A stretch of 64,000 bases of DNA from positions 1,624,501 to 1,688,500 of the forward strand of contig NZ_LT607750.1 in NCBI RefSeq assembly GCF_900090235.1, given 5' to 3'. The notes beneath the pieces were generated by a model. The model saw only the letters and a program-made list of their open reading frames with translations, had not been told where the DNA came from and ran no database searches. Numbering within the stretch: position 1 is the first letter of the stretch; the number at the start of each line of letters is the position of its first letter. Source of the stretch: Micromonospora echinaurantiaca (GTDB lineage: Bacteria; Actinomycetota; Actinomycetes; Mycobacteriales; Micromonosporaceae). The translations under genes were made by a program, and so were the position numbers. Of the stretch, positions 15,424 to 54,915 are shown piece after piece.

Positions 15424-15924
15424 TCACGTCCGGTTGGGCGCGCCGAGCAGGTACCGCAGGTCGTCCAGCATGACGACCAGCACGCCGACGACCAGCGCGC
15501 CGGCGACGGCCACGGCCGCTTCGCCCGGGCGTACGGACCCGGCCGGGGCGAGCGCGCCGGCGGCAGCGACGGCGATGAGGAACGCGTTTCGCCACACGTG
15601 GTGCCGGCCCAGCGGCGTGGCGGTGCGGCCGAAACACCGGCAGGTGCCGCCGCCGCGACGCAGGTTCGCGGCGATGGCGACGGTGAAGGCGACCAGCAGG
15701 GCGGCCGAGGTGACGAAACCGGCCAGCGGGAACACCGCCAGCAGGACGACGGCGGTGAACTCGGCGGTCACCACGGCCGCGGCGAGCGGCCCGGCCGGCC
15801 GGTAGCCCAGGTCGCGGACCGAGTTCGTGAACTCGCGGTACGCGGCCCGCCCGGACACCTTGCCGACCGCCGCCGTCAGCAGCACCGTGCCGAGCAGCAT
15901 CCGGCACCCGATCTCGACGTACAT
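15424..15924 (-). CDS. MauE/DoxX-type redox membrane protein, cassette 1
   Basis: The 166-aa, four-helix protein is the last gene of cassette 1. It has the MauE hallmark of a Cys-x-Cys pair before the third helix: Cys95 and Cys97 in TCRCFGR. MauE of methylamine utilisation works with the thioredoxin-like MauD to form the many disulfides of the small amine dehydrogenase subunit; here no dehydrogenase gene is present. By analogy it would pass electrons between the cassette's TlpA-like protein and the membrane quinone pool. ATG 15924 lies 1 nt after the signal peptidase stop, so the two are translationally coupled. Cassette 2 has a homolog with the same CRCFG motif (47918-48508). Confidence 0.85.
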   Translation of the reverse strand: MYVEIGCRMLLGTVLLTAAVGKVSGRAAYREFTNSVRDLGYRPAGPLAAAVVTAEFTAVVLLAVFPLAGFVTSAALLVAFTVAIAANLRRGGGTCRCFGRTATPLGRHHVWRNAFLIAVAAAGALAPAGSVRPGEAAVAVAGALVVGVLVVMLDDLRYLLGAPNRT

Positions 15925-15925
15925 G

Positions 15926-16237
15926 TCATCGCCTCCCCTTGGCCACGCCGAGGATCGCCTCGCGTGGCACCGCCCCGAAGTGCCGCGAGTCCTGGCTGTG
16001 GGCGTTGTCCCCGCGCACCGACACGGCGCCGTCAGGTTCGACCCGGTGCACGCGTTTGACCATCCACGTCAGGTCCGCGTCCGGCACGACGTCGCGGGCC
16101 CGGAAGACGACCAGGTCACCGGCGGCCGGCGGCCGCCCGACGCGGACGATGATCCGCTCCCCGTCGCGTAGCGTCGGGGTCATGCTCTGCCCGCGGACGA
16201 CCACCAGCCGCCAGCGGCGGCGCAGCCAGCCGGTCAC
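15926..16237 (-). CDS. Minimal S26-family signal peptidase (SPase I-like), cassette 1
   Basis: The 103-aa protein retains the whole SPase I catalytic core: Ser18 in GQSMTPTL, the general-base Lys61 in MVKRVHRV, and the GDNxxxSxDSRHFG box. It has no N-terminal transmembrane anchor, whereas housekeeping LepB is more than twice as long and anchored. The start is GTG 16237, overlapping the ABC transporter stop by 4 bp (GTGA). Its position inside the operon, with an Ala-Gly-Ala site before Cys25 of the precursor peptide, suggests a dedicated leader peptidase. It may be held at the membrane by the exporter or MauE. Cassette 2 encodes an anchored version. Confidence 0.82.
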   Translation of the reverse strand: MTGWLRRRWRLVVVRGQSMTPTLRDGERIIVRVGRPPAAGDLVVFRARDVVPDADLTWMVKRVHRVEPDGAVSVRGDNAHSQDSRHFGAVPREAILGVAKGRR

Positions 16238-18012
16238 GACGCCGCCAGTTGGTAGCCGTCGGCCTGGAGGCGGAACAGCCGCGCGTACTCGCCGTCGGCC
16301 GCCATCAGCTCGTCGTGCCCGCCCGATTCGACGACGCGTCCGGCGTCGAGCACCACGATGCGTCGCGCGTCGCGCAGGGTGCTGAGCCGGTGGGAGATCA
16401 ACAGGCCGGTGCGGCCGTGCCGGATCCGGGCCAGCGACGCGTGTACCCGGGTTTCGGCATCGGCGTCGAGTCCGGAGCTGGGCTCGTCCAGGATGAGCAG
16501 GTCGGCGTCGGCGCGCATCAGCGACCGGGCGAGCGCGACCCGCTGCCACTGCCCGCCGGAGAGCGTCACCCCCGGCTCGCCGTCCTGGTCGGCGAAGGTA
16601 CGGCTGAGCAGCGTGGCGTAGCCGTGGGGGAGGGCGCGGAGGCGGTCGTGGATTTCGGCCCGCGCGGCGGCCTCCTCGACCTGCTCGCCCGTGTGCGGCA
16701 GCCGGCCGATGCCGACGTTCTCCGCCGCGGTGAGGTCGTAGCACATGAAGTCCTGGAACACCGCGCCCATCCGCCGACGCACCGTCTCGACCCGCAGCTC
16801 GCGCAGGTCCACGCCGTCCCAGGTGATCCGGCCGCGGTCCGGGTCGTAGAACCGGCAGAGCAGCTTGACCAGGGTGCTCTTGCCGGCTCCGTTGAGCCCG
16901 ACCAGCCCGACGGCCTCACCGGCGGTGATCGTCAGGTCGACGCCCCGCAGGATCCACGGGCCGTCCTCGTCGTAGCGGAACCACACGTCCTCGAACCTGA
17001 CGGCGCTGCGCAGCGGCGGTGCCGGCAGGGTCCCGTCGGCCAGGTCGACAGGAGTGTCGAGAACGGTGACGTAGTGCCGGAACAGCCGGATGGCCGTGCC
17101 GGCCTCGCCGAGCTGACCGGCGACGCCGGCCAGACCGCTGTGCGCCGCGGCGAACGCGGCCAGCAGCAGGGTGAGGTCGCCGAGGCTGAGCCGGCCGCGG
17201 ACCGCGGCGTTCACCGCGATCACCGTCGCGGCGAGGGTCACCGCGGCACCGGCCAGCGCCCAGCAGGTCTGCACCACCGTGGCATGCCGCGCGGCGGCCA
17301 GCTCGATCCGGGCGGCCGCCCGCACCGCACCGGTGAGCCGGTCGTGGAAGAACCGGCCGAGTTGGTAGAGGCGCACCTCCCGGACGGCACGCAGGTCGGT
17401 CAGCACGGTCTGGAACAGGAACCGGGCCCGGAACAGGCCGGCGCTGTCCTCCACGGCGCGCGCGGCCCGCCGGGACAGCCGCAGCTGGATGAGGAAATCG
17501 GGCACTGCCACGGCGAGCAGGAGCAGGCCGGCCGGCGGCCAGAGGGACGCCAGGATCGCGGCGAAGCCGCCGATGGTGACGACGTTCTGGACCACGTCGA
17601 CGGTGAACATGACGACGGCGTACGGCGCCTGGGTGGCGGCCTGCTGGGCCAGCGTCAGCCGGTCGCGCAGTGCCGGCTGCTCGAACGGGCCCAGCCCGAC
17701 AAAGGTGTTCAGCTTCCGGTACAGCCGCACGTCGGCGGCGATCGTGATCGAGTTCTGCAGCGCCGTGGTGAAGTAGCCGGACACGCGGCTGGCGATCGCC
17801 GCCAGGGCTCCGAGGACGGCGATCGCCACGGCGTACCAGGTCGCGGTCGACGGGCTGGCCGCGCGGCCCCTGCTGACCTCGTCGAACAGCAGCTTCGTGA
17901 ACCACGCGATGCCGAGCGGTGGCACCGCGCCGACGAGGACCAGGGCGACCATGGCGGTGAGCGCCTTCGGGTCGGCGCAGCCAAGCCGCAGGGCGGCTCG
18001 CAGCGTCGCCAC
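16234..18012 (-). CDS. ABC exporter with fused membrane and ATPase domains, cassette 1
   Basis: This 592-aa half-transporter has a six-helix membrane domain (residues 1-310). Its nucleotide-binding domain carries Walker A GLNGAGKST (about residue 374), the signature LSGGQWQRVALARSL and Walker B LLILDEPSSGLD. There is no N-terminal C39 peptidase domain, so leader cleavage must be done by another enzyme; the next gene encodes an S26 protease. GTG 18012 follows the thioredoxin stop by 3 bp. The likely cargo is the Cys8 peptide made at the head of the operon. A multidrug or lipid substrate cannot be ruled out from sequence alone. Confidence 0.92.
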   Translation of the reverse strand: MATLRAALRLGCADPKALTAMVALVLVGAVPPLGIAWFTKLLFDEVSRGRAASPSTATWYAVAIAVLGALAAIASRVSGYFTTALQNSITIAADVRLYRKLNTFVGLGPFEQPALRDRLTLAQQAATQAPYAVVMFTVDVVQNVVTIGGFAAILASLWPPAGLLLLAVAVPDFLIQLRLSRRAARAVEDSAGLFRARFLFQTVLTDLRAVREVRLYQLGRFFHDRLTGAVRAAARIELAAARHATVVQTCWALAGAAVTLAATVIAVNAAVRGRLSLGDLTLLLAAFAAAHSGLAGVAGQLGEAGTAIRLFRHYVTVLDTPVDLADGTLPAPPLRSAVRFEDVWFRYDEDGPWILRGVDLTITAGEAVGLVGLNGAGKSTLVKLLCRFYDPDRGRITWDGVDLRELRVETVRRRMGAVFQDFMCYDLTAAENVGIGRLPHTGEQVEEAAARAEIHDRLRALPHGYATLLSRTFADQDGEPGVTLSGGQWQRVALARSLMRADADLLILDEPSSGLDADAETRVHASLARIRHGRTGLLISHRLSTLRDARRIVVLDAGRVVESGGHDELMAADGEYARLFRLQADGYQLAAS

Positions 18013-18015
18013 GTC

Positions 18016-18504
18016 TCAGGCCAGGACCGGAAGCTGGTGGCTGGCGCCGACGACGACGCCGTCGACCACCGACAGCACGGCGGGGAACCCCTTGACCCGG
18101 AACTCCTTCTCGGCCCGCGGCTCGGACATCGTGGCCGTGTCGAAACCGGTGAGGCGGGGCGCCATCGCCGCCGTCTCCTCCGGCGTGCCGATCATGACCA
18201 CGAGGGTGTCGTGGCGGTAGCGCTCGGCGTCGGCGGTGAGGTCGTCCAGGAGGGTCTGGCACGGGGGGCAGGTCGGGGTCAGCATGACCACCGTGCGCCG
18301 GCCGGTGGTCAGGTCGGCGTGCGGGAAGCCGCTGACGTCCAGGCCCGGGGCGGGCAGCACCTCGGGAACGGGCTCGCCGTCGTGGTCGTGGGCGTGGCCG
18401 GCCTGCACCTCGCGTAGCCGCCGGGCGAGGGCCAGGGTCAGGACGAGATTGAGCACGGCGACCGCGCCGACGACAGCGATGGCGGCGTAGGCGAAACCCT
18501 GCAT
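18016..18504 (-). CDS. TlpA/MauD-like membrane-anchored thioredoxin, cassette 1
   Basis: The 162-aa protein has an N-terminal anchor (VVGAVAVLNLVLTLALARRLREV), a His/Asp-rich linker and a thioredoxin-like domain whose redox motif is Cys79-Pro-Pro-Cys82 (TPTCPPCQTL). A cis-Pro loop is visible as GFPAVL. ATG 18504 sits behind GAGGAG. The domain faces outside and would oxidise or isomerise thiols, most plausibly those of the Cys8 peptide encoded just upstream. The anchor strongly resembles that of the cassette 2 protein (LLNLLLTFGVIRKLREH). It follows a strong hairpin after the peptide gene and is coupled to the ABC gene by a 3-bp gap. Confidence 0.88.
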   Translation of the reverse strand: MQGFAYAAIAVVGAVAVLNLVLTLALARRLREVQAGHAHDHDGEPVPEVLPAPGLDVSGFPHADLTTGRRTVVMLTPTCPPCQTLLDDLTADAERYRHDTLVVMIGTPEETAAMAPRLTGFDTATMSEPRAEKEFRVKGFPAVLSVVDGVVVGASHQLPVLA

Positions 18505-18527
18505 GGAAACTCCTCGGCGAGTCGGGA

Positions 18528-18555
18528 GGGGGCCGCGCCGCCCGGCGCGGCCCCC
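18528..18555 (-). terminator. Perfect hairpin between precursor peptide and maturation genes, cassette 1
   Basis: A 12-bp perfect stem (GGGGGCCGCGCC and its complement) with a 4-nt loop lies 14 nt after the peptide stop codon, inside the operon. Partial termination or mRNA stabilisation here would make far more precursor than processing enzymes, a design common in peptide biosynthesis operons. Cassette 2 has a counterpart in the same place. Confidence 0.75.
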
Positions 18556-18569
18556 GGCGGACAGCCAGG

Positions 18570-18809
18570 TCAGCAGGCGCCGACCTTCTTGGTGTAACAG
18601 ATCGGCCGCGACGTCGAGGTCACGCACGCGCCGTTGCAGTTGTAGTAGCCCTGCCGGTAGTAGCGGAAGTAGGAACCGCCCGAGCAGTAGCCGTTGGACG
18701 CGACGCACGAGCACTTCTGGCCGTGCTCCGGCACGCAGGCGCCGGCCTCCTCGCGGCCGAGCACCTTGCCGAGCACGGCGTCGCCGACGCGGTTGATGAT
18801 CCTGGTCAT
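18570..18809 (-). CDS. Cys8 precursor peptide (79 aa), head of cassette 1
   Basis: ATG 18809 was chosen because AAGGAGG lies 7 nt upstream; an in-frame TTG at 18815 almost touches that site. The leader (residues 1-24, MTRIINRVGDAVLGKVLG, then REEAGA) is amphipathic rather than a classical Sec signal and ends in Ala-Gly-Ala directly before Cys25. The core (25-79) has eight cysteines at 25, 33, 35, 42, 58, 62, 71 and 79, the last being the C-terminal residue. It is also rich in Tyr and Gly (SGGSYFRYYRQGYYNCNG). Eight Cys allow four disulfides. Downstream come a CPPC thioredoxin, an ABC exporter, an S26 peptidase and MauE. The product may be an antimicrobial, signalling or structural peptide; no homolog is recognised except the cassette 2 peptide. 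Confidence 0.85.
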   Translation of the reverse strand: MTRIINRVGDAVLGKVLGREEAGACVPEHGQKCSCVASNGYCSGGSYFRYYRQGYYNCNGACVTSTSRPICYTKKVGAC

Positions 18810-18842
18810 GGGCAAACCTCCTTGTGGGGGTGGTTGCCCATC

Positions 18843-18897
18843 ACTGTGCTGGTCGCCGCTGCGCGTGCCCTGCGCTACTACTGCGCGCCGGCTGCGT
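18843..18897 (-). promoter_or_regulatory. SARP-type promoter of cassette 1: four hexamers at exact 11-bp spacing
   Basis: On the coding strand, ACGCAG and three GCGCAG copies lie at 18897-18892, 18886-18881, 18875-18870 and 18864-18859, each 11 bp from the next. Ten nt after the last copy is a -10-like CACAGT (18848-18843). Direct repeats at 11-bp pitch are how SARP proteins read DNA, and the SARP gene ends here: two of the copies lie within its last codons. The spacing is not a multiple of three, so codon bias does not explain it. Confidence 0.6.
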
Positions 18898-21799
18898 TCC
18901 GCCAGCCCGCCAGCCGTCGGCGCAGGTCATCGGCGTACGCGGCGTCGAAGTGCTCGAAGATGCCCAGCGCCTCCTCGCCCAGCGCGACGGCCCGCTCGGG
19001 CCTGCCCAGGGCGGCCTGCGCGCGGGCCAGCAGGCTCAGCGAGTTCGCCAGCGGGAACGGCTGCCCGATGCTGCGCAGCATCGCCACCGAGCCTTCCAGT
19101 TCGGCCACCGCCTGACCCGCGTCGCCCTCCTCCAGGTGCACCTTCCCGAGCAGCCGGCGGGAGATCGCCTCGCCCCACTCGTGGCGCATCTCCCGGAACG
19201 CCGCCGCCGTACGGAACAACAGCCGGCGCGCGGCGTCGGTGTCTCCGGCGGCCAGCTGCGTCGCGGCCAGCGCCTGCTCGGCGGTGGTCACGCTGATCCG
19301 GTCGCCGAGCCGGCGCGCGGCGGTCACCGCCTGCCGCAGGTGCTCCAACGCCTGCGGCCACTGCTCGGCGTGCCGGTGCAGCAGCCCGATGCTCTCCCGC
19401 GCGAGCGCCTCGCCCCACAGGTCGCCGCCTTCGGAAAACAGCCCGAGGGCCGCGGTGAAGGCGGCGTGGGCGAACGGTGAGGTGAGCTGGTACTGCGCGT
19501 GTTGCTCGCCGAGGGTCAGCAGCACGTGCCCGCCGACCGGGCCGACCGGCCAGTGCGCCGCGCAGGTGCGCACCATCAGCAGCAGCGCGGCGTCCGCCTC
19601 CCGCAGCCGACCGAGCGTACGACAGCACAGTGAGTAGCCGTGCAGTGCGGCGAGCCGGTGTGCCACCAGCGGCCCGCGGCTGTCCCGGTGTGCCGCGCGC
19701 AGCAGTGGAACGGCCTCGGCGTGCCGGTTCACCATCCGGTAGGCCGTGCCCAGCTGGAGCCGCAGCGACATCCGGGTCGGCGACGGCAGGTCGGCGGCGC
19801 GGTCGAGCACGTTGCGCAGGCAGTCGACGAGGTCGGGCAGGTGCTCGCTGCGCATCATCGCGAAGTTGCCCATCGTGCAGGCCAACCGCCCCGCCAGGTC
19901 GACCGCGTCCAGCCGGAGCAGGTCCCGTACCGCCGCGACCAGGTTCTCCCGCTCCGCCTCGAACCAGTCGACGGCGTCCCAGGCGTCGATCGCGGACACC
20001 GCCTCGGCCACCGGCAGGGCCTTGCAGGGCAGCGCCGCGGCGGCGCGTTCGGCGTACGCGTGCAGCCGTCCGTACCAGGCGATCACCTGGTCGGCGCTGA
20101 CCTCGGTGCGCTCCCGGGAGTGCAGCCGGACCAGGTCGTGCATGCGGACCCTGCCGCCGGGCTCGGCGGTCAGCAGGTGGGCCCGGCACAGCTGTTCCAG
20201 CAGCGGCTCGGTGCTGTCGTCCCACATGCCGAAGCTGCGCAGCGACGTACGGCTGAGCACCGCGAGCAGCCGGGCGGCGGGCGGTGGCAACCGCTCGAAC
20301 CCGACGGTGAAGCTGCTGCGCACGTCGAGCCCGTCGAGCGACAGCTCATCGAGGCGGCGCCGCTCGTCGCGCAGCCGGTCACGCAGCCGCGCCACCGGCA
20401 TCGCCTCCCGCTCGGCCAGCCGTACGCCGGCGATGCGCAACGCCAGCGGCAGGCGACCGCACAGCTCCACCACGTCGACGGCCGCCGCGGCCTCGCGATC
20501 GAGCCGCTCGGCGCCGGCGAGGCCGGCCAGCAGGTCGAGGCCGTCGTCGACCGGCAGGACGTCGAGCGGAACGACCTCGGTGCCCGGCAGCCCGGACAAC
20601 GCCGCCGTGCTGGTGATGAGCGCAGCGCTGCCGGCGGGCGGCAGCAGCGGGCGCACCTGCGCCGCGTCCGCCGCGCTGTCCAGCATCACCAGCATGGGCT
20701 GGTCGGCGAGCACTGAGCGGTACAGCGCCGCGCGTTCCTCGACCGCCGCCGGGATGGCCTCGCCGGCCACCCCGAGGGCGCGCAGGAAGGCGCCGAGGAC
20801 CGTGTCGGGCCGCGCCGGGTCCGGAGTGTTACCGCGCAGGTCCGCGTAGAGGCACCCGGCAGGGAAGCGGTGGCGGCTCTCGTGCGCCGCGCGCAGCGCG
20901 AGGGTGGTCTTGCCCGTCCCCGCGAGCCCGGTCACGACGACGATCTGCGCCGCCCCGGTGGCTGGCGGGTTGCGTCCGAGCAACGACAGCAGCAGCCCGA
21001 GCTCCTTGTCCCGTCCGACGAAGTCGCCGGGGACGCCCGGGAGCTGGTTGGGCCGCACCCGCGCCGGCGGGGACGACTCCTGCTCGCTGCCGAGGATCTC
21101 CCGGTGCAGCTGTCGCAGCTGCGGCCCCGGGTCGATGCCGTGCTCCTCGGCGAGGAGGCGGGCTCCGGCCCGGTACACGGCGAGCGCCTCCGCCTTCCGG
21201 CCGCTGCGGTGCAGGGCCACCATGAGCTGGCCGCGCAGCCGCTCCCGCAGGGGCCGATCACGCACCAGCGTGGTCAGCTCCGGCACCAGCTCCTGATGCA
21301 GACCGAGGGACAGCAGTGCCTCGACGCGCAGCTCGACCGCGTGCTCGCGGAGCTCGTGAAGGCGGTCACGCTCGACGTCGACCAACCTCGTGTCGACGTC
21401 GACGAACGCGTCGTCGCGCCAGCGCGCCAGCGCCCGGTCGAGCAGCTCCACGGCACAACGGGCGTCGGTGGCGGTTGCGGCGGCCCGCACGTCGGCGGCG
21501 AACTCCGCCGCGTCCAGCACCACCGCGGCGTTCAACTCGTAGCCGGGTGACCTGGTGAGGATCAGCTCCGGCGTCGCACCGCGCCGGACCGAGGCGACGA
21601 CCGCCTGGACCCGGTTGCGCGCACCCGTCGGCGGGTGGTCCGACCAGAGGCCGTCGATCAGGCGGTCGACGGAGACGATGCGTCCATGGTGGGCCGCCAG
21701 GCTCGCGACGAACGCCCGTTCCAGCGGGGCGAGCGACACAGCTACCCCGTCGACGCTCAACTCGATCCGTCCGAGGACGCCGATCCGATACCCGCGCAC
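18878..21799 (-). CDS. AfsR/SARP-family regulator (winged helix-BTAD-NB-ARC-TPR), cassette 1
   Basis: The 973-aa activator has an OmpR-like DNA-binding domain (residues 1-95, YRIGVLGRIEL), a bacterial transcriptional activation domain (about 100-245) and an NB-ARC ATPase with Walker A TGLAGTGKTTLAL near residue 290. Helical TPR repeats run to the C-terminus. The AfsR layout implies nucleotide-dependent control by an unknown signal. GTG 21799 has no Shine-Dalgarno, but TAGCTT lies 6 nt upstream, suggesting a leaderless transcript. It lies directly upstream of and in line with the peptide gene (68 bp gap), and the 11-bp repeats at its 3' end fit it as the cassette activator. Confidence 0.92.
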   Translation of the reverse strand: MRGYRIGVLGRIELSVDGVAVSLAPLERAFVASLAAHHGRIVSVDRLIDGLWSDHPPTGARNRVQAVVASVRRGATPELILTRSPGYELNAAVVLDAAEFAADVRAAATATDARCAVELLDRALARWRDDAFVDVDTRLVDVERDRLHELREHAVELRVEALLSLGLHQELVPELTTLVRDRPLRERLRGQLMVALHRSGRKAEALAVYRAGARLLAEEHGIDPGPQLRQLHREILGSEQESSPPARVRPNQLPGVPGDFVGRDKELGLLLSLLGRNPPATGAAQIVVVTGLAGTGKTTLALRAAHESRHRFPAGCLYADLRGNTPDPARPDTVLGAFLRALGVAGEAIPAAVEERAALYRSVLADQPMLVMLDSAADAAQVRPLLPPAGSAALITSTAALSGLPGTEVVPLDVLPVDDGLDLLAGLAGAERLDREAAAAVDVVELCGRLPLALRIAGVRLAEREAMPVARLRDRLRDERRRLDELSLDGLDVRSSFTVGFERLPPPAARLLAVLSRTSLRSFGMWDDSTEPLLEQLCRAHLLTAEPGGRVRMHDLVRLHSRERTEVSADQVIAWYGRLHAYAERAAAALPCKALPVAEAVSAIDAWDAVDWFEAERENLVAAVRDLLRLDAVDLAGRLACTMGNFAMMRSEHLPDLVDCLRNVLDRAADLPSPTRMSLRLQLGTAYRMVNRHAEAVPLLRAAHRDSRGPLVAHRLAALHGYSLCCRTLGRLREADAALLLMVRTCAAHWPVGPVGGHVLLTLGEQHAQYQLTSPFAHAAFTAALGLFSEGGDLWGEALARESIGLLHRHAEQWPQALEHLRQAVTAARRLGDRISVTTAEQALAATQLAAGDTDAARRLLFRTAAAFREMRHEWGEAISRRLLGKVHLEEGDAGQAVAELEGSVAMLRSIGQPFPLANSLSLLARAQAALGRPERAVALGEEALGIFEHFDAAYADDLRRRLAGWRNAAGAQ

Positions 21800-22016
21800 C
21801 GCGCAAAGCTAGCGCGGTGGCCACTGGTTGCGCTTTGGGCGGTTCGCCCGACCTTCTGCCGGCGCGCCTGGCCTGGGCGGCGGGTGCGGCGCGGGCCGGC
21901 CCGGATCGCGACGGCCACAGTGATCAATACCTCACCGAGCGCTCGGGAGTCTCGTCCCGGCCATCGACGTCGATAGGGTGCGGTCCGGTTCGTCTATCCA
22001 GAAGGGACACATCCTG

Positions 22017-22415
22017 ATGCTGCGTCGGATCACGTCGCTCTTCGCGGCGACGGTGCTCGCCGTGGTCACGTCCGTCACGGTTGCCGCCTCGCCGGCCATG
22101 GCCGGCGCGAACGCGATGGCCTGGACGTACGCCGGTGGAACCGCCCGGGGCCAGGCCGTCTGGTACCACGACGGGGACAGCCTCAAGGTCTGCGACATGA
22201 GCGCCGACGGCCGGGGCATCCGGGGCGTCATCTACTCGTACAACTCCGCGGGCGGCTACTGGGTGAACGAGTTCTCGGTCGCCGACTCGAACTCCTCGGA
22301 CGGCTGCAAGACCGGGTCGAAGAACGTGCCGGACGGGCGGAAGGTCGAGGTCGTGGTCTACCAGTACTGGTCCGACTCGACGTGCTGCGCCGAGAGCTCG
22401 TACGGCGTCGCCTGA
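22017..22415 (+). CDS. Small secreted protein, four cysteines, unknown function
   Basis: The 132-aa product has a classical Sec signal peptide (LRRITSLFAATVLAVVTSVTVAA, cleavage after AMA). The mature domain is about 100 residues and beta-rich, with a GQAVWYHDGDSLKVCDMSADG motif and four Cys, two of them adjacent (STCCAES). Related-looking proteins are common in Streptomyces-type secretomes without assigned function. ATG 22017 follows AGAAGGG. It is divergent from the cassette 1 SARP but differs from the cassette peptides: longer, Sec-exported and with sparse Cys. I do not consider it part of the cassette. Confidence 0.75.
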   Translation: MLRRITSLFAATVLAVVTSVTVAASPAMAGANAMAWTYAGGTARGQAVWYHDGDSLKVCDMSADGRGIRGVIYSYNSAGGYWVNEFSVADSNSSDGCKTGSKNVPDGRKVEVVVYQYWSDSTCCAESSYGVA

Positions 22416-22547
22416 GCTGACCGGCAGCCGGCCCGCCCGTTCCCGGTGGGCGGGTCGGCGGCCGGCCCGCCGGTGGCCTCGGCCCGGTCGGAGCACGACC
22501 AGCCCCGGCTGGCCGGGCGCGGCTGCCGCGATCCGGTTGCCGATCGG

Positions 22548-24920
<2,373 letters not shown>

Positions 24921-24948
<28 letters not shown>

Positions 24949-25487: not shown

Positions 25488-25497
25488 TGTTCGATGA

Positions 25498-25514
25498 TAC
25501 CGGTTGAACCGGTA
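25498..25514. promoter_or_regulatory. Perfect palindrome TACCGGTT-G-AACCGGTA, candidate CGNR operator
   Basis: Two perfect 8-bp arms flank one central base, immediately upstream of the CGNR regulator start. A further half-site GTTACCGG (25543-25550) lies 30 bp away, toward the divergent reductase gene. The arrangement suits autorepression plus control of the neighbour. Confidence 0.65.
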
Positions 25515-25573
25515 ACAGAGATCACGCTGTGCCTCCTGTCGCGTTACCGGCTCGACTAGTAACGTCACGGCGC

Positions 25574-40989: not shown

Positions 40990-40996
40990 GCGGACA

Positions 40997-44194: not shown

Positions 44195-44222
44195 CCGGCC
44201 GGAGTCGCCTCCTTCCGGCCGG
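44195..44222. terminator. Bidirectional hairpin between convergent methyltransferase and hydrolase
   Basis: CCGGCCGGA (44195-44203) and TCCGGCCGG (44214-44222) are perfect complements around a 10-nt loop, placed in the 70-bp gap between two convergent stop codons. Confidence 0.65.
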
Positions 44223-44237
44223 ACCGCCCGGCCGCCG

Positions 44238-45116: not shown

Positions 45117-45119
45117 GCC

Positions 45120-47825: not shown

Positions 47826-47849
47826 CGACTCTAGGAGACCACCGGGCTG

Positions 47850-47888
47850 AGCCGGGCCGCGGCCGGTTCGGCCGGCGCCGGCCCGGCT
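47850..47888. terminator. Large GC hairpin between LAL gene and cassette 2
   Basis: Outer arms AGCCGGGCC (47850-47858) and GGCCCGGCT (47880-47888) are perfect complements, with an inner GCGGCCGG/GGCCGGCGC extension. It follows the MauE gene stop on its reading strand and would end cassette 2 transcription before the LAL gene. Confidence 0.6.
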
Positions 47889-47917
47889 GGTTCAGCGGGC
47901 GCTGCCGAGGACGGGGA

Positions 47918-48508
47918 TCACGAGGATGTCCGGCCGCCCCGGCGGGAGGCGCCCCGATCGGCCGCGCCGGGTGGCGCGGCGACGGGCAGGAACAGGGCGG
48001 CGAGATCGTCGAGGCGGACGACGACCAGCGCGCCCACCAGGCCCAGCGGAACGGCCAGTACCGCCGTCCCGACCGTCACCCCCGGGTCGCCGAGCGAGGC
48101 GTACGCGCCGATCCCGGCGGCGACCGTCAGCACCACGTTGCGCACGAGATGGCGCCGACCGAACGGCGCCGCCGCGGCTTCCCCGAAGCACCGGCAGGAC
48201 ACCGCCACCCCACGGTGCAGGACCACCGCGACCGCCACCGTGAACGCCGCCGACAGCGCCGTCGCCACCGCGAACCCGGCAGTGGCCACCGCGGCGGCGG
48301 GGAGCGGCACCAGCAGCAGGGGCACCGCCGCCTCGGCGACCGTCACCGCCCCCGCTACCGGGACGACCAGCCGCGCCGGCAGCAGATCCATGGCCCGCAG
48401 CGAGTCGGCGAACGCCCCGAACGCACGCCGCCCGCGGAGTTTGCTGGCGGCCGACGCCAGGAAGACCAGCGCGAGCAGACACCGGCTGAACACGAACAGG
48501 TACGACAT
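47918..48508 (-). CDS. MauE/DoxX-type redox membrane protein, cassette 2
   Basis: The 196-aa, four-helix protein is homologous to the cassette 1 MauE. The diagnostic VSCRCFGE carries Cys105 and Cys107, followed by the same GRRHLVRN (cassette 1: GRHHVWRN). ATG 48508 lies behind GAGGAG; a longer frame reaching 48610 is proline-rich and unlikely to be coding. The C-terminus has an extra Gly/Arg-rich tail of about 25 residues. It would reoxidise the TlpA-like partner during folding of the Cys8 peptide. It is divergent from the S26 gene. Confidence 0.85.
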   Translation of the reverse strand: MSYLFVFSRCLLALVFLASAASKLRGRRAFGAFADSLRAMDLLPARLVVPVAGAVTVAEAAVPLLLVPLPAAAVATAGFAVATALSAAFTVAVAVVLHRGVAVSCRCFGEAAAAPFGRRHLVRNVVLTVAAGIGAYASLGDPGVTVGTAVLAVPLGLVGALVVVRLDDLAALFLPVAAPPGAADRGASRRGGRTSS

Positions 48509-48656
48509 GCGTCTGGGTCTCCTCTCATCGCTCGCCGGCGGCGGGCGAGGCCACCGGATCCGGCACCGGCTGGCGCGGGTCGGCGGCGTCCACGCGGCAC
48601 GGGCAGTCACCCATCGGCCGGTCCTGCCCCCGCTGTCGCTCCGCTACCGTGGTGCG

Positions 48657-49109
48657 GTGGATCGATCCGTTCTGTTGCTCGCCGTCGGCTGCGTCGTGGC
48701 GCTCGGGGTCGCCGTGCTGGTTGCCCGTGCCCTGCTCCAGGTGGTCGGGGTCAACGGCGACAGCATGACCCCGACGTACCGGGAGGGTGACCAGCTCCTC
48801 GTGCTCCGGCGGGGATTCCGCCGGCGGCTGCGGGTCGGTGCCGTCGTCGTCTGCCTGCCGCCACCCGGCATCAGGATCAAGGCGGGTGACGTCGACGCCG
48901 CCACCCAGTTGATGGTCAAGCGGGTGGCGGCGCTGCCGGCAGGGCAGATCTACGTCCTCGGTGACGCGCCGCGGCACAGTCTCGACTCGCGGGCCTTCGG
49001 CGCGCTCCCGCCGGAGCTGGTGCGGGGCGTGGTCATCCGACGGCTGCGGGCCGCGCTGGGCTCATCCCGCGGCGGGCACGACGTCGCGCCTCGGGGACAG
49101 GTCGGGTAG
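48657..49109 (+). CDS. Membrane-anchored S26 signal peptidase, cassette 2
   Basis: The 150-aa protease has an N-terminal membrane anchor (LLLAVGCVVALGVAVLVA, residues 6-23), catalytic Ser36 in GDSMTPTY, Lys88 in LMVKRVAAL and the box GDAPRHSLDSRAFG. GTG 48657 has TACCGT 6 nt upstream, suggesting a leaderless mRNA. It is the only cassette gene besides the SARP on the + strand and overlaps the convergent TlpA-like gene by 48 bp. By analogy with cassette 1 it would cut the Cys8 precursor after Ala-Ser-Ala. Confidence 0.85.
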   Translation: MDRSVLLLAVGCVVALGVAVLVARALLQVVGVNGDSMTPTYREGDQLLVLRRGFRRRLRVGAVVVCLPPPGIRIKAGDVDAATQLMVKRVAALPAGQIYVLGDAPRHSLDSRAFGALPPELVRGVVIRRLRAALGSSRGGHDVAPRGQVG

Positions 49110-49649
49110 CTGGCTGGCGTTGTTGCTGACGCCCGCCACCCGGCCGTCCGTGTCGACCAGGTAGAACGCGGGGAACGCGGCGACCTGGAAGGCCGACTGG
49201 AGCGCCCCGTCGAGCGGCTCGTGGACGATCGCCGCCCGACTGTCGAGCACGCCCAACGCCGTCACCAGCTCGGCGCGCTCGCTGTCCTCGCGCTCCGGCG
49301 CCGGGCGCAGCCGGGTGAGCACGACGAGCACGGCCATCGGGGAGTCGAGCGCTTCGGCGAGCGCCGACCGCGCCGCGGGAAGTTGCTCCTGGCATCCGGA
49401 ACAGTCGGGGGCGAGGAACGCCACCAGGCCGCCGGAGGCACGCAGCGAGGCGATGGACACCACGTCCCCGCCGGCGGTCGGGGCGGTGAAGTCCGGCACC
49501 TGCGCGCCGACCGGGAGGGTCACCGGTGGGCGGGCGCGGGCCAGCTCCTGGGTGTGCTCGCGCAGTTTCCGGATGACGCCGAAGGTGAGTAACAGGTTCA
49601 GCAGCGCGAGGACGGCGAGGACGACGAGGGCGGCGACGACTACGGGCAT
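49062..49649 (-). CDS. TlpA/MauD-like membrane-anchored thioredoxin, cassette 2
   Basis: The 195-aa protein starts at ATG 49649 behind AGGAG (an upstream ATG at 49676 has none). Its anchor is VVVAALVVLAVLALLNLLLTFGVIRKLREH. The thioredoxin-like domain (about 45-180) has the redox motif Cys83-Ser-Gly-Cys86 (APDCSGCQEQL), FQVAAFPAFYLVD with the cis-Pro loop, and VPDFTAPTAGG typical of TlpA/ResA. It follows the Cys8 peptide gene, separated by a strong hairpin. The active-site pair differs from cassette 1 (CPPC), implying a different redox potential. Confidence 0.88.
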   Translation of the reverse strand: MPVVVAALVVLAVLALLNLLLTFGVIRKLREHTQELARARPPVTLPVGAQVPDFTAPTAGGDVVSIASLRASGGLVAFLAPDCSGCQEQLPAARSALAEALDSPMAVLVVLTRLRPAPEREDSERAELVTALGVLDSRAAIVHEPLDGALQSAFQVAAFPAFYLVDTDGRVAGVSNNASQLPDLSPRRDVVPAAG

Positions 49650-49680
49650 GGGTTCGCTCCTGACGGGAATGGGCACCAGC

Positions 49681-49714
49681 GCGTCGCGGCCGGGGGCTCA
49701 CCCGGCCGCGACGC
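49681..49714 (-). terminator. Perfect hairpin between precursor peptide and TlpA gene, cassette 2
   Basis: GCGTCGCGGCCGGG (49681-49694) and its exact complement (49701-49714) form a 14-bp stem with a 6-nt loop, 15 nt after the peptide stop. It mirrors the hairpin in cassette 1 at the same place. Confidence 0.78.
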
Positions 49715-49729
49715 TCTCACGGGCGTTGC

Positions 49730-49915
49730 TCAGCAGTCCGAACCCCACCAGCACTCGCACCAGCTGTTGCAGGTGCGCCACTTGAACCGGGTGTAGGTGA
49801 ACCGGCAGCACATCGGGGTGTTGGTGCAGGACGGCTGGCAGACGGCCGACGCGGTGGTCTTGGGCAGCATCAGTGCCAAGAACCGGTCCGCCAGTGCGCC
49901 GACGCGACGGGTCAT
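49730..49915 (-). CDS. Cys8 precursor peptide (61 aa), cassette 2
   Basis: ATG 49915 lies behind GGAGGG. The leader (residues 1-24 or 25, MTRRVGALADRFLALMLPKT, then TASA) is a short cationic amphipathic helix ending in Ala-Ser-Ala, one residue before the first Cys. The core has eight cysteines at 26, 30, 36, 37, 49, 53, 55 and 61, again with Cys as the last residue. It is rich in aromatics and Arg/Thr (CCRFTYTRFKWRTCNSWCECWW). Cys spacing differs from cassette 1, so the two fold families are related in design rather than in sequence. A cationic, Trp-rich, disulfide-rich peptide is compatible with membrane or antimicrobial activity, which is inference only. Confidence 0.85.
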   Translation of the reverse strand: MTRRVGALADRFLALMLPKTTASAVCQPSCTNTPMCCRFTYTRFKWRTCNSWCECWWGSDC

Positions 49916-49949
49916 GTGTCCCTCCAATCGTGATCTAGACTGATGGTGG

Positions 49950-49995
49950 ACGATAGGTGGACCTCCTACACGGCGACCTACAGCGCGGATACAAC
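49950..49995 (-). promoter_or_regulatory. SARP-type promoter of cassette 2 peptide: three TGTA-core heptads, 11/12-bp spacing
   Basis: On the peptide's strand the heptads are GTTGTAT (49995-49989), GCTGTAG (49984-49978) and CGTGTAG (49972-49966), stepping 11 then 12 bp. Ten nt after the last lies TATCGT (49955-49950), a good -10. The region also separates the peptide from the divergent SARP gene, so autoregulation is possible. Confidence 0.65.
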
Positions 49996-50077
49996 CGTTA
50001 CGCGCCAAGCGTTGCGGGCCCTCGTACCTCGTTCCCAGGGTGCTGGCCGTGGTGGTCCCGACCAGAGCCGAGGTGCC

Positions 50078-53074
50078 TTGAGCCTGCGATTCCAGCTGCT
50101 CGGTCCACTCCGGATCATCGCCGCCGGTCGCGCTGTCCCGGTCGGCCCGCAGAAGCAGCGGGCGATGCTGGCCGCCCTGTTGCTGTCGGCCAACGAGCGG
50201 GTGTCGCTGGACCGCCTCGTCGGCGAGCTGTGGGACCAGCCGCCCCACTCGGCCGTGGCGAACCTGCGCACCTACGCCAGCGGGCTGCGCCGGTTGCTGA
50301 GCGAGCTGGACGCCCCGCCCGGCGGCGGCGACCGGTTGACCGCCGGCGTCGCCGGATACCAGCTGCGGATCGAGCCGGAAGAGCTGGACCTGCACCGCTT
50401 CCAGGCCGCGGTCGAGCGCGGCCGCACGGCCCTCGCCCGCGGCGATCACGCCGGCGCCACGGCGCACCTCCGGGAGGCGCTGGACCTGTGGCGGGGCCGA
50501 CCGGCCGAGGACGTACGCCCCGGGCCGGAACTCGATGCCCGGATCACCCTGCTCGAGGAGCAGCACCTGTCGCTGGTCGAGGACCTGATCCAGGCGCGTC
50601 TCGCGCTCGGCGAGCACGCCTCGGTGACCGGCGAGCTGCGGCTGCTGATCACCGCCCACCCGTACCGGGAGCGGCTGCGCCACCAGCTCATGCTGGCGCT
50701 GTACCGGTCCGGCGACGCGCCGGCGGCCCTCGCGGCGTACGCGGAGACCCGTGCGGTCCTCGCCGATCAGCTCGGCCTCGAACCCGGCACGGACCTGACC
50801 CGGCTGCACCAGGCCATCCTGCGACGGGCACCCGAACTGTCCACGCCCGACGCCGCTGCGGAACCGGTCGGCCCGCGACCGGCTGCCGCGCCGAATGACC
50901 CGCCCGGCCCAGCCGAACCGCCGCGTCAGCTGCCGCCGGACGCCGCGGCCTTCGTCGGCCGGGTCGACGAACTCCAGGCCATCGAGCGGGCCTGCACGGC
51001 CACGAACGGGTCGCGGACCGGCCCGGCGGTGGTCGTGCTGCACGGTCCGGGCGGGATGGGCAAGACCACCCTGGCGGTACGCGCCGCGCACCGGCTCGCG
51101 CGCCACTATCCCGACGGGCAGCTCTACCTCGAACTGCAGGGCGGGGCACCGGGCATGGCCAGTGTCGAACCGCTGTCGGCGCTCGGTCGGCTGCTGCGCG
51201 CGCTCGGCGTGCCGGCCCGGGACGTTCCGCTCGAACTGGCCGAGGCGGCCGCGCGGTTCCGGTCGGAGACCGCTGCCCGGAGGCTGCTCATCGTCCTGGA
51301 CGGCGCGGCCGGCGCGCAGCAGATCCGGCCGCTGCTCCCGGCTGGCCGGGACTGCGCGGTCCTCATCACCAGCCGCCGGCCGACGGGCACCCTCGACGCG
51401 GTCCGGCTCCGGCTGGACCGGCTCAGCGACGCCGAGGCGCGCCAGCTCCTCGACACCCTCTGCGGCGACGGGCGGGGAGCGGCCGACCCCGCCGCGGCGG
51501 ACCGCCTGGCGATGCTGTGCGACGGTCACCCGCTGGCGTTGCGCATCGCCGGGGCCCGGCTCGCGGCCCGCCCCGACTGGTCCGTCGCGGTGCTCGCGGA
51601 CCGGTTGGACAACGAGCGGGAACGCCTCGACGAACTGCGCGCGGACGACCTCGCCATCCGGTCCAGCTTCTGGAACACCTACCGGCAGCTGCTCGACAGC
51701 GCCGATCCGGACGACCGCACGGCGGCGGCCGCCTTCCGGTCGCTGTCGCTGCTGCGGGTGCCGGAGATACCGGCGCCGCTCGCCGCGGTCACCATCGGTG
51801 TCCCGGAACGCCGTGCGCTGACGCTGCTGGACCGGCTCACCGAGACGCACCTGCTGGACGCGGTCGGGCCGACCCGGTTCCGGTTCCACGACCTCCTCCG
51901 GCTCTACGGTGCGGAGCTGGCCGAGGAGACCGATCCGGCCGCGGAGCGCGAACGGGCGGCACTCCGCGGGCTGTCCGCGTACCTGACCACGGTGCTGCGC
52001 GCCGGCCAGCTGTTGCGTCCGCAGCGGGCGGCCGAACTCGCCACCGGGCCCACCGTCGTCGAGCTGGCCACCGTCGACGACGCCGTACGCTGGGTCGACG
52101 CCGAGCTGGCCGGGATCATCGCGGCCGCACGCCAGGCCTGCGACGCGGCCCCCCGGTTGAGCCGGCTGTGTGTGGAGGCGATCCCGTCGGTGGCCGGGTG
52201 GCTGCAGAAGCGCAACCGGTGGGCGGAGGCCGACGCCCTGGTCGCCGTCTGCGAGCAGGCGGCGACGCGCACCGACGACGGTGCCGCCCGGGCCACGGTG
52301 CTCGCGCTGCGGGCGACCCTGCACTGGCGTGCCGGATCCCTGGAGGCCGCGTGCGGGGCGCTGGAGTCGGCGCTGGAGTTGTGGCGCCGGCTGGGCGATC
52401 GCGAAGGCGAGGGGCGGGCGCTGCAGAACCTCGGCTGGTTCCACCACCGTACGGGCTCCGCACGCCGGGCGGCTGACCTCGTCCGGGCGGCGGTCCGGCT
52501 GCTCGCCACCGCGAACCCGGTGTGGCTGGCGATGGCGCTGCACAACCTCGCCGAGATCGAGTTCGAGCTGGGCAACTTCCCGGCGGCCGGCGAACACCTC
52601 ACCCGCTGCCTGGTGATGCGGCGCGAGCACGACGACGCCGTCGGCGAGGCGATGACGCTGGTCGCTCTGGGCCGGACGCACAGCCAACTCGGGCGGCACC
52701 CGGACGCGCTGAGGGCACTCACCGCCGGCCTTCGGCTGTGCCGGCGGACCGGCAACCGGGAGGACGAGTGGGAGGCGCTGCTCAGCCGCTCGGAGGTGCA
52801 CCTTCGGATCGGTGACGTGGCGCTGGCCCACCGTGACGGGGAGGAGGCGCTGAGCCTGGCCCGGGCGGTCGGCGACCGGTACGGCGAGGCGGCCGCGCTG
52901 CGGCAGCTCGGCCGGGTGCGGGAACGCCGCGGCGAGCGCGCCGCGGCCGACGGCTACGCGCGGCAGGCCAACCGGATCTTCGCCGACCTGCCGGGCCGGC
53001 GGGACGGCGTGCTCGAAACGTTCCTGGCCCGCGCGGATCAGTCCGCCGGCGTGCCCACCTCGGCCGGCAGGTAG
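50078..53074 (+). CDS. AfsR/SARP-family regulator (winged helix-BTAD-NB-ARC-TPR), cassette 2
   Basis: The 998-aa activator starts at TTG 50078 (MSLRFQLLGPLRI), preceded by GAGG; the longer frame to 49943 would run through the divergent promoter. A winged helix spans 1-100 and BTAD 105-255. NB-ARC has Walker A LHGPGGMGKTTLAVRAA near residue 322 and RLLIVLDGAAGA. TPR helices fill the C-terminal third (EGRALQNLGWFHHRTGSARRA, EAMTLVALGRTHSQLGRHPDALRAL). It is divergent from the Cys8 peptide gene and shares an operator-like array with it. Its 3' end overlaps the convergent ABC exporter gene by 37 bp. Confidence 0.92.
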   Translation: MSLRFQLLGPLRIIAAGRAVPVGPQKQRAMLAALLLSANERVSLDRLVGELWDQPPHSAVANLRTYASGLRRLLSELDAPPGGGDRLTAGVAGYQLRIEPEELDLHRFQAAVERGRTALARGDHAGATAHLREALDLWRGRPAEDVRPGPELDARITLLEEQHLSLVEDLIQARLALGEHASVTGELRLLITAHPYRERLRHQLMLALYRSGDAPAALAAYAETRAVLADQLGLEPGTDLTRLHQAILRRAPELSTPDAAAEPVGPRPAAAPNDPPGPAEPPRQLPPDAAAFVGRVDELQAIERACTATNGSRTGPAVVVLHGPGGMGKTTLAVRAAHRLARHYPDGQLYLELQGGAPGMASVEPLSALGRLLRALGVPARDVPLELAEAAARFRSETAARRLLIVLDGAAGAQQIRPLLPAGRDCAVLITSRRPTGTLDAVRLRLDRLSDAEARQLLDTLCGDGRGAADPAAADRLAMLCDGHPLALRIAGARLAARPDWSVAVLADRLDNERERLDELRADDLAIRSSFWNTYRQLLDSADPDDRTAAAAFRSLSLLRVPEIPAPLAAVTIGVPERRALTLLDRLTETHLLDAVGPTRFRFHDLLRLYGAELAEETDPAAERERAALRGLSAYLTTVLRAGQLLRPQRAAELATGPTVVELATVDDAVRWVDAELAGIIAAARQACDAAPRLSRLCVEAIPSVAGWLQKRNRWAEADALVAVCEQAATRTDDGAARATVLALRATLHWRAGSLEAACGALESALELWRRLGDREGEGRALQNLGWFHHRTGSARRAADLVRAAVRLLATANPVWLAMALHNLAEIEFELGNFPAAGEHLTRCLVMRREHDDAVGEAMTLVALGRTHSQLGRHPDALRALTAGLRLCRRTGNREDEWEALLSRSEVHLRIGDVALAHRDGEEALSLARAVGDRYGEAAALRQLGRVRERRGERAAADGYARQANRIFADLPGRRDGVLETFLARADQSAGVPTSAGR

Positions 53075-54915
53075 CCCGCGTCCGTCCGGGCAGGGCCCGC
53101 CTCCGTGGGGGCGTAGCCCGCCGCCTGCATCCGGAACAGGGCGGCGTAGGTGCCGTCGGCCGCCAGCAGGTCCTCGTGCCGGCCCGCCTCGACGATCCGT
53201 CCGTCCGACAGCGCCACGATCAGATCGGCGTCGCGCAGCGTACCCAGCCGGTGCGAGATCAGGACACTGGTCCGGTCGGCCCGGTGCCGGCGCAGCCGGA
53301 GCTGGATGTCGCGCTCGGCCTCGGCGTCCAGGCCGGCGCTCGGCTCGTCGAGGATGAGCAGGTCCCGCGCCGCGGGCAGCACCGAGCGGGCGATCGCCAT
53401 CCGCTGCCACTGCCCGCCGGAGAGCAGCACCCCGGCATCGGCCGGGTCGCCGTCCAGTTCGAACACCCGGGACAGCATCGTGTCGTACCCCCGAGGCAGG
53501 TCCTCGATCACCTGGTGGATGCCGGCCCGCCGGGCGGCGTCGGCGATCCGGGTGGCGTCCTCGGCGCGTACGTGGTCCGGGCCGGCCGGGTCGACGTCGC
53601 CGAGCCAGATGTTCTCCGCGGCCGTGAGGTCGTACGTCATGTAGTCCTGGAACACCGCGCCGATCCGGGCCCGCAGATCCTGCACGGACAGCTCGCGGAG
53701 GTCGACGCCGTCCCACAGGATCGCGCCCCGGGTCGGGTCGTAGAACCGGCACAGCAGCTTGACCAGGGTGCTCTTGCCGGCGCCGTTGTGGCCGACCAGG
53801 GCGACCGCCTGCCCAGCCGGGATGAACAGGTCCACACCGCGCAGCACCCACGGGTGGTCCGGGCCGTAGCGGAACCACACGTCGCGCAACTCGATGCCCC
53901 GCTTCAGTGGCGGCACCGGCAGCGGCCGGGCCGGCTCCGGGAGATCTGGTGGGCAGGTGACGATCTGCTCGTAGTGCGCGAGGAGCAGCATCGCCTGGTG
54001 GATGCCGGCGAGGTGGTCGATCATGGTGGCCAGGCTGCTCTGCACCCCGGCGACGGCGGCGATGAAGACGGCCACGTCGCCCACGGTGAGCCCGCCGGAT
54101 CGGGCGGTGGCCACCGCCCACACCAGGCCGCCCCCGGACAGCGCCGCGCTCAGTGCCGCGAGCAGCGCCTGGACGCGTACCTCCCGGCGCTCGTGGGCCC
54201 GACGGGCGGCGTTCGCGGTGCTCAACTCGGCGAGCATCCGGCGCCGGAACAGCCCGCCCAGCCGCAGCAGACGTACCTCCTTGGCGGCGGACAGGCTGGT
54301 CAGCAGGCTCGCGTAGAACACCTCCCGCCGCTCGCCCGGCCCGATCTCCCACAGCATGTTCGCCCGTCGCCGGCTCAGCCGGAGTTCGGCGACCAGCGCC
54401 GGCACGCCGCCGGCCGCCACCAGCACGGCCATCACCGGGTTGATCACCACGAGGGTGCTGAGGAAGCCGGTCAGCAGCACCGCGTTCTGCACCAGGCCGA
54501 GCAGGCTGTCGACGCAGCGGCTCGGGCCGTCCCGTCCGGCCTGCTCGGCCAGCCGGAGCGTGTTCTGGAACGCCGGATCCTCCAGCCGGCGCAACCCGCC
54601 GAGGCGGTCGGTCGCCGCGTACAACTGGTCGAGCGCCACGACGGCGGCCGAGCGCCCGAGGTCCGCCCGCAGGTAGTTCGTCAGGTGCGGCACCAGCGCG
54701 AGGCCGACGGAGACCGCCGCCAGCGCGATCGCCACCCCGAGGATCGGGCCGCCGGCGGCGTCCGTGACCCGGTCCAGGACGAGCTTGGTGAGCCAGGCCG
54801 CCAGCACCGGAAGGGCGCCGGCGATCGGCGCGAGCACGACGTACACCGCCAGGTTGGCCCGACCGGCCCGCCAGACCACCGCGACCGCCCGGGCGGTCCG
54901 GGCAATGCTGATCAT
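53038..54915 (-). CDS. ABC exporter with fused membrane and ATPase domains, cassette 2
   Basis: The 625-aa half-transporter is similar in layout to the cassette 1 exporter: six helices (residues 15-310), Walker A LVGHNGAGKSTLVKLL (about 380), signature LLSGGQWQRMAIARSVL and Walker B DLLILDEPSAGLD. There is no peptidase domain. The C-terminus has a short extra tail. ATG 54915 has TACCTT 6 nt upstream and no Shine-Dalgarno, so it may be leaderless. Two TGTA-core heptads 11 bp apart lie 35-52 bp upstream, matching those before the Cys8 peptide. This ties the exporter to the peptide even though it lies beyond the SARP gene. Confidence 0.92.
   Translation of the reverse strand: MISIARTARAVAVVWRAGRANLAVYVVLAPIAGALPVLAAWLTKLVLDRVTDAAGGPILGVAIALAAVSVGLALVPHLTNYLRADLGRSAAVVALDQLYAATDRLGGLRRLEDPAFQNTLRLAEQAGRDGPSRCVDSLLGLVQNAVLLTGFLSTLVVINPVMAVLVAAGGVPALVAELRLSRRRANMLWEIGPGERREVFYASLLTSLSAAKEVRLLRLGGLFRRRMLAELSTANAARRAHERREVRVQALLAALSAALSGGGLVWAVATARSGGLTVGDVAVFIAAVAGVQSSLATMIDHLAGIHQAMLLLAHYEQIVTCPPDLPEPARPLPVPPLKRGIELRDVWFRYGPDHPWVLRGVDLFIPAGQAVALVGHNGAGKSTLVKLLCRFYDPTRGAILWDGVDLRELSVQDLRARIGAVFQDYMTYDLTAAENIWLGDVDPAGPDHVRAEDATRIADAARRAGIHQVIEDLPRGYDTMLSRVFELDGDPADAGVLLSGGQWQRMAIARSVLPAARDLLILDEPSAGLDAEAERDIQLRLRRHRADRTSVLISHRLGTLRDADLIVALSDGRIVEAGRHEDLLAADGTYAALFRMQAAGYAPTEAGPARTDAGYLPAEVGTPAD

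Follow-up and report, generated by a model that had tools for sequence, protein, structure and literature searches.

A shared leader, a conserved gene set, and a predicted inner-face machinery for putative disulfide-rich peptides in actinobacteria

What is made by a gene set that occurs twice, in two different arrangements, within one 64,000-nucleotide stretch of the Micromonospora echinaurantiaca genome (RefSeq assembly GCF_900090235.1, contig NZ_LT607750.1, forward-strand positions 1,624,501 to 1,688,500; hereafter, the window), and on which side of the membrane is it made? Each copy, at 15424-21799 (cassette 1) and 47918-54915 (cassette 2), comprises genes for MauE, an S26 peptidase, a membrane thioredoxin, an ABC exporter, and a SARP regulator, together with a short Cys-rich open reading frame (ORF), and gene order and strands are not the same in the two cassettes. 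A preliminary description had listed these six families at both places, and Pfam and NCBIfam matches together with motifs bear it out. The gene set, a leader consensus, even Cys counts, catalytic motifs, and genome-wide co-occurrence are evident from the sequences. Narrowly, on balance, we favor the reading that oxidation and trimming by this machinery take place on the membrane's inner face and precede export of a likely bioactive disulfide peptide.

Loci from other genomes were selected by a thioredoxin profile, and all co-occurrence reported here is therefore conditional on the thioredoxin. Among the 121 genomes of the family, 77 had matches (E ≤ 1e-6); a search of the class based on a deeper alignment gave matches in 26 of 345 genomes (E ≤ 1e-15), the genome of the window being counted in both cases. 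Set 1 was drawn from the higher-scoring family rows (60 loci), set 2 (the test set) consisted of 40 loci (29 class level and 11 family), and set 3 consisted of 80 named loci, which overlap sets 1 and 2 (e.g., L042 is the same as L154); repeats were removed from the counts of distinct peptides and kept in the counts of loci. Within 9 kb of the thioredoxin gene, the ABC exporter was found in 54/60, 39/40, and 74/80 loci of the three sets (167/180), S26 in 52/60, 34/40, and 73/80 (159/180), MauE in 33/60, 35/40, and 54/80, and SARP in 43/60, 20/40, and 60/80, and the leader model described below found precursors at 55/60, 31/40, and 72/80 loci (158/180). The co-occurrence that the preliminary description had proposed to look for in other actinobacterial genomes is thus conserved, and most of the 180 loci combine the gene set with a Cys-rich peptide whose leader ends in Ala-x-Ala, which suits S26 as had been supposed. 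The named hosts include Micromonospora, Nonomuraea, Microbispora, Actinomadura, Pseudonocardia, Streptomyces, and Thermobifida.

At the genome level, we compared 17 cassette genomes, namely, those with at least one sampled locus without a local MauE, with 20 control genomes (two of them <90% complete) out of the 44 family genomes that had no thioredoxin match. A cassette-type MauE was present somewhere in 17/17 cassette genomes (best E values, 5.3e-57 to 2.7e-45) and in none of the 20 controls (best E value, 2.1e-14), of which 12 held only a distant MauE and 8 held none at E ≤ 1e-10. Precursors at E ≤ 1e-3 were likewise found in 17/17 cassette genomes versus 0/20 controls. Therefore, the parts travel together at the genome level. 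Judging from these distributions, MauE can apparently be shared between loci of a genome. Loci without MauE at first resembled counterexamples, but all 17 such genomes hold a cassette-type MauE somewhere.

The M. echinaurantiaca genome (7.2 Mb, one contig) holds a third cassette, located via MauE at 3.905 to 3.911 Mb, outside the window and 2.2 Mb off, with a 10-Cys peptide. Compared with their cassette 1 counterparts, the MauE proteins are 45 to 46% identical, the thioredoxins 32 to 35%, and the S26 proteins 42 to 47%. A six-frame search of the whole genome with a profile of 48 precursors gave three significant matches (E values of 3.6e-16, 1.1e-14, and 1.8e-10), one per cassette, and the next best match had an E value of 0.22. 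Chance ORFs were considered as an explanation and rejected in view of this specificity and of reversed decoys. At ~1.860 Mb in the same genome (L012:6928-7338), a 136-residue ORF with 15 Cys lies ~700 bases from a noncassette MauE; its sole Pfam match is below threshold, and it is possibly the substrate of another MauE.

Both precursor ORFs of the window have strong ribosome-binding sites, AAGGAGG upstream of precursor 1 and GGAGGG upstream of precursor 2. The 8-Cys frame proposed earlier for precursor 1 is real, and its start is shifted: it most likely begins at the ATG at 18809, giving 79 residues rather than the 81 of a TTG frame. Nine database homologues of precursor 1 (69 to 85% identity) are hypothetical or unnamed and have no Pfam domain. 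The leader model was built from 26 seeds picked by eye in set 1 and the window, and set 1 is therefore in-sample; the model was fixed before the 40-locus and 80-locus sets were fetched. The test set yielded 36 precursor hits, with even Cys counts in 36/36, and reversed sequences gave 3 weak hits in 15,698 test-set frames and 2 in set 3, none of them Cys-rich. Pooled at ≥8 bits, ≥4 Cys, and a core of ≤110 residues, with two coreless set 3 hits dropped, the 183 hits represent 165 distinct peptides, containing 4 Cys (2 peptides), 6 Cys (53), 7 Cys (5), 8 Cys (72), 10 Cys (29), 11 Cys (1), or 12 Cys (3). After clustering of cores at 50% similarity, 111 of 117 clusters had even Cys counts (binomial P = 4e-26, with remaining kinship ignored), a pattern suggesting that every Cys is paired in a disulfide. 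Related 7-Cys cores at L071:8595-8765 and L072:3923-4084, which belong to the odd-count minority, possibly form dimers or keep a free thiol.

The leader common to these precursors is ~24 residues long and ends in Ala-x-Ala (AGA in precursor 1 and ASA in precursor 2), with the consensus M-x-[RK]-x-[LIV]-x-x-L-[GA]-D-R-[LM]-L-x-x-[VFL]-[VA]-P-[KR]-x-x-A-x-A. Among the 117 leaders, and partly through selection by the model itself, D is found in 105, R in 101, P in 113, A at -3 in 111, and A at -1 in 115; none of the 117 contains Cys. The cores are unrelated in sequence, are 28 to 75 residues long, and consist of 18.7% Cys, 8.5% Tyr, and 1.3% His, with a mean net charge of +1.28. Scans of 48 precursors gave no NCBIfam match and two unrelated weak Pfam matches, neither of them credible. 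The loci have the layout of a ribosomally synthesized and posttranslationally modified peptide (RiPP) system, that is, a conserved leader, a divergent core, and dedicated genes adjacent. A Sec signal peptide was considered for the leader and rejected, as none of the 117 reaches a mean hydropathy of 2.0 across 12 residues. One locus in Rhizohabitans arisaemae (L210:6739-12661) carries seven leader-bearing precursor frames with differing 6-Cys cores.

The enzymes retain their catalytic motifs. The thioredoxin CxxC, the MauE CRCFG, the S26 Ser and Lys, and an ABC exporter without a peptidase domain had been noted before, and all are confirmed in both window copies. The first hydrophobic segment of the exporter begins at residue 16 in cassette 1 and residue 21 in cassette 2, which leaves no space for an N-terminal peptidase domain. 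Across the loci, CxxC is present in 40/40 aligned thioredoxins and in 183/187 scored domains, CxCFG is present in 125/125 scored cassette MauE domains, and Walker A is present in 169/169 ABC domains. For S26, frames without the Ser motif were dropped (several are out-of-frame shadows), so that this motif is present by construction; a narrow pattern for the Lys matches 95/108, and 8 of the 13 misses were inspected and keep the Lys in an [IV]KR context. In Pfam scans, the thioredoxin of cassette 1 matches Thioredoxin_2 below the cutoff, with an E value of 0.0025, and that of cassette 2 matches AhpC-TSA above it, with an E value of 2.8e-8; the AfsR matches of both SARPs fall far under the equivalog cutoff.

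The charges that flank the membrane segments bear on where these enzymes act. An unambiguous start was available for 70 of 135 S26 proteins, 4 of which have no membrane segment; in the remaining 66, Lys plus Arg averaged 0.41 before the segment and 2.62 after it (61 with more after and 4 with more before), often with LRRR right past the segment. LepB has the opposite pattern (2.26 before and 0.16 after; more before in 30 of 31 housekeeping rows, where 12 residues before the segment were counted whatever the start and several rows repeat the same protein). As far as prediction goes, cassette S26 as a group thus departs from the charge pattern of ordinary signal peptidase I, whose catalytic domain lies outside. 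The cassette thioredoxins carry RRLREH past the membrane segment, with Lys plus Arg of 0.19 before and 3.31 after and the excess after the segment in 169/170, a tally with no control set. In MauE, the loop with the CxC holds 4.29 Lys/Arg in 68 cassette copies versus 1.33 in 18 housekeeping copies, where Lys/Arg tend to sit at the N terminus instead (18 of 21 housekeeping copies were readable, and in some of them the N terminus was missed or wrongly placed by the segment finder). In addition, 5/108 S26 proteins, including that of cassette 1, have no membrane segment yet retain the catalytic motif, and without anchor or signal they would be expected to act inside. These patterns predict that the catalytic parts of S26, thioredoxin, and MauE face the cytoplasm, with cutting and oxidation before export. 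Elsewhere in the same genome (L009:8552-9728), the gene after a housekeeping MauE encodes a DsbA-like protein whose anchor, as judged by eye, is of the ordinary N-in kind, and these two are a likely outer-face disulfide pair of this genome.

In the mechanism we propose, the precursor would be guided to the membrane by its leader, disulfides would be formed by the thioredoxin CxxC, and the MauE CxC pair would reoxidize the thioredoxin, the final electron acceptor perhaps being a quinone. S26 would cleave after Ala-x-Ala, the MsbA-type exporter would send the folded peptide out, and SARP would turn expression on. With all Cys oxidized, the calculated monoisotopic masses of the cores of cassettes 1, 2, and 3 (8, 8, and 10 Cys) are 5980.529, 4479.721, and 4869.790, lower than those of the reduced cores by one H per Cys. 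The purpose of the peptide would likely be antibacterial or signaling.

This order reverses that of the preliminary description, in which the ABC protein exports the precursor and S26 cutting and thioredoxin/MauE oxidation take place outside the cell. The outer face is where signal peptidases cut after Ala-x-Ala and where bacteria normally form disulfides; both S26 proteins also score above the signal peptidase I cutoff of TIGR02227 (48.0 bits in cassette 1 and 55.5 bits in cassette 2 versus 47 bits). However, cassette S26 and MauE show the reverse of the charge pattern seen in LepB and housekeeping MauE, respectively, the thioredoxin follows the cassette pattern, and an enzyme acting on the outer face with neither anchor nor signal could hardly be expected to get to its substrate. 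Because of these three observations, we favor the inner-face order and consider export before cutting and oxidation less likely. Several points weigh against the inner-face reading. The cytoplasm is reducing, and the relatives of S26, MauD, and MauE are generally taken to act outside; the topology is predicted from the positive-inside rule only; and for the S26 of cassette 2, the start is uncertain and just one Arg lies soon past the membrane segment. Odd Cys counts occur in 6/117 core clusters. Within 9 kb, MauE is absent in 58/181 loci and SARP in 57/180, the search for precursors came up empty at 5/60, 9/40, and 8/80 loci, and L120 and L121 consist of a partial thioredoxin, MauE, and ABC without S26 or precursor. 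The earlier claim that the set is obligatory suits whole genomes, given MauE in 17/17, better than single loci. In some of the 17 genomes, another cassette carries a MauE of its own, and supply in trans is then not the sole reading.

Other readings concern the chemistry of the cores. They might stay reduced and bind metal, with thioredoxin and MauE as reductants or metal-handling partners, and both the Cys content of the cores and a weak match of cassette 1 MauE to the distant HvfX family of Cu-binding peptide maturation (15.5 bits; cutoff, 80) would accord with this; metal binding does not require parity, however, and the even counts in 111/117 core clusters and in 50/52 precursors away from cassettes, along with the scarcity of His, make it improbable. 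Cys might instead be modified to thioether or azole by enzymes encoded elsewhere, since known RiPPs use Cys-rich cores and the leader/core layout is RiPP-like. The extra gene families beside the cassettes speak against this, under crude gene calling: the most frequent is a response regulator (19/181 loci), and the 15 that reach 8 of the 181 loci look by eye like regulators, transporters, and chromosomal neighbors, including an aminotransferase in 12 loci and a short-chain-dehydrogenase-like protein in 10, with none recognizable as a thioether or azole enzyme. As no recurring modification enzyme was recognized by eye among these 15, we infer only disulfides and leader removal, and a dedicated thioredoxin and MauE argue for disulfides as well; other Cys chemistry is thus very improbable. 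We give least credence to a MauE/MauD pair serving a cofactor protein like methylamine dehydrogenase, which the MauE homology and a weak MauD homology might suggest, as the thioredoxins reach just 14.2 and 22.3 bits against MauD (TIGR02661; cutoff, 188.6) and their partners are divergent 28- to 75-residue cores rather than an enzyme subunit.

Precursors are not confined to cassettes. The precursor profile had 57 matches in one genome (G007) and 32 in another (G026), with 2 and 3 thioredoxin matches, respectively. From the matches listed, 40 scattered places were fetched, 24 in G007 and 16 in G026 (L288 to L327), and surveyed under a laxer rule (5 bits and 3 Cys). A leader plus a Cys core was present at 39/40 places, for a total of 52 precursors, 50 of them with even Cys counts. 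Within ~1.5 kb of the 40 places, we found one thioredoxin, three SARPs, and no MauE, S26, or ABC genes. One machine apparently serves a venom-like library of precursors in trans. We tentatively entertain, as possible though somewhat short of probable, a genome-scale venom-like system in which a universal leader is joined to hypervariable disulfide cores, up to dozens of them scattered per genome, and one shared inner-face machine (an inverted signal peptidase, thioredoxin, and MauE) oxidizes and trims the peptides ahead of export in finished form.

The features of the two window cassettes are collected in Table 1; the cassette 1 S26 has an inferred GTG start that overlaps the ABC stop.

Table 1. 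Genes of the two cassettes (positions in the window)
Cassette	Feature	Position	Strand	Basis or remark
1	MauE membrane protein, CRCFG	15424..15924	-	Pfam MauE, 3.8e-21
1	S26 leader peptidase, 103 residues, catalytic Ser and Lys, without transmembrane segment	15926..16237	-	Pfam Peptidase_S26, 1.5e-15
1	MsbA-type ABC exporter, without peptidase domain	16234..18012	-	Profile match
1	Membrane-anchored thioredoxin-like protein, CPPC	18016..18504	-	RRLRE immediately past membrane segment
1	Precursor, 79 residues: leader ...EAGA and 55-residue core, 8 Cys	18570..18809	-	Homologues and ribosome-binding site
1	AfsR/SARP-type regulator	18878..21799	-	Profile match
2	MauE, CRCFG	47918..48508	-	Pfam MauE, 5.5e-23
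2	S26 leader peptidase, N-terminal membrane segment, start codon uncertain	48657..49109	+	Pfam Peptidase_S26, 3.2e-16 on 48681-49109
2	Membrane-anchored thioredoxin-like protein, CSGC	49062..49676	-	Pfam AhpC-TSA, 2.8e-8
2	Precursor, 61 residues: leader ...TASA and 37-residue core, 8 Cys	49730..49915	-	Leader profile, 34.0 bits
2	AfsR/SARP-type regulator	49943..53074	+	Longest frame; profile match from 50081
2	MsbA-type ABC exporter, without peptidase domain	53038..54915	-	Profile match

Two further regulators lie in the window. A large one with a LuxR-type C terminus as judged by eye (45120-47825) adjoins the cassette 2 MauE and is possibly involved in the control of cassette 2, and an additional SARP-type regulator (36187-38907) stands between the cassettes, with no other cassette gene matched nearby.

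Few bioactive scaffolds match disulfide-rich peptides in stability, and to our knowledge only a small number of bacterial routes to such peptides have been described. With one leader on 165 distinct precursors, of which the 48 scanned had no credible Pfam or NCBIfam match, the class is therefore minable with a single profile. If our reading is right, these genomes would hold a large supply of sturdy, likely bioactive peptides, hardly any of them named, and the cassette would be a tool to produce disulfide-rich peptides. The inverted machinery also poses the question of whether peptides can acquire disulfides on the cytoplasmic side of the membrane, ahead of their export.

In the open-access literature, the sole relevant precedent we found, in the portion of the paper accessible, is decRiPPter (2020), which reported as candidate RiPPs three mauE families in Streptomyces, all with precursors containing 8 or more Cys and one of them also with mauD (PMC7794033). 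The same pairing is found here, with MauE in both window cassettes and precursors of 8 and 8 Cys (4 to 12 across loci). Streptomyces viridosporus T7A is among the three genomes named there (PMC7794033), and S. viridosporus NRRL 2414 has the shared leader with 10 Cys (L216); the cassette families presumably correspond to the decRiPPter MauE families. The accessible main text of that paper mentions no SARP, thioredoxin, signal peptidase, or S26 and gives no leader or mechanism (PMC7794033). The system had earlier been called undescribed; judged by the literature found, this applies to the leader, S26, and the mechanism and not to the pairing of MauE with precursors of 8 or more Cys. Leader peptides rich in disulfides have precedents, but we found no description of the present leader, of its machine, or of the inverted orientation of that machine in the literature accessible.

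Among the closest known systems are also the laterosporulins, bacteriocins of Brevibacillus (PDB 4ozk, 6lwy, and 6lwz), and the actifensins of Actinomyces, which have a leader, a 6-Cys core, and ABC transporter genes, with up to 7 copies per operon and a product mass ~6 Da under prediction (PMC6989792). The accessible actifensin text mentions neither a thioredoxin nor a peptidase, and its leader has GA at -3/-2 and Glu at -1 (PMC6989792), whereas the cassette leaders have Ala at -3 and -1. For methylamine dehydrogenase, earlier work cited in the decRiPPter paper is reported to give MauD and MauE a substrate rich in disulfides (PMC7794033). The cassettes resemble that maturation system in their MauD-related thioredoxin and PF07291 MauE and differ from it in having a small peptide as the putative substrate, an added exporter and S26, and a MauD score far under the cutoff. 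Finally, the cassette S26 shares its catalytic Ser/Lys with the nickel superoxide dismutase (Ni-SOD) maturation protease and signal peptidase I but scores below the Ni-SOD protease cutoff (52.8 bits in both copies versus 63.25) and has a charge pattern opposite to that of LepB.

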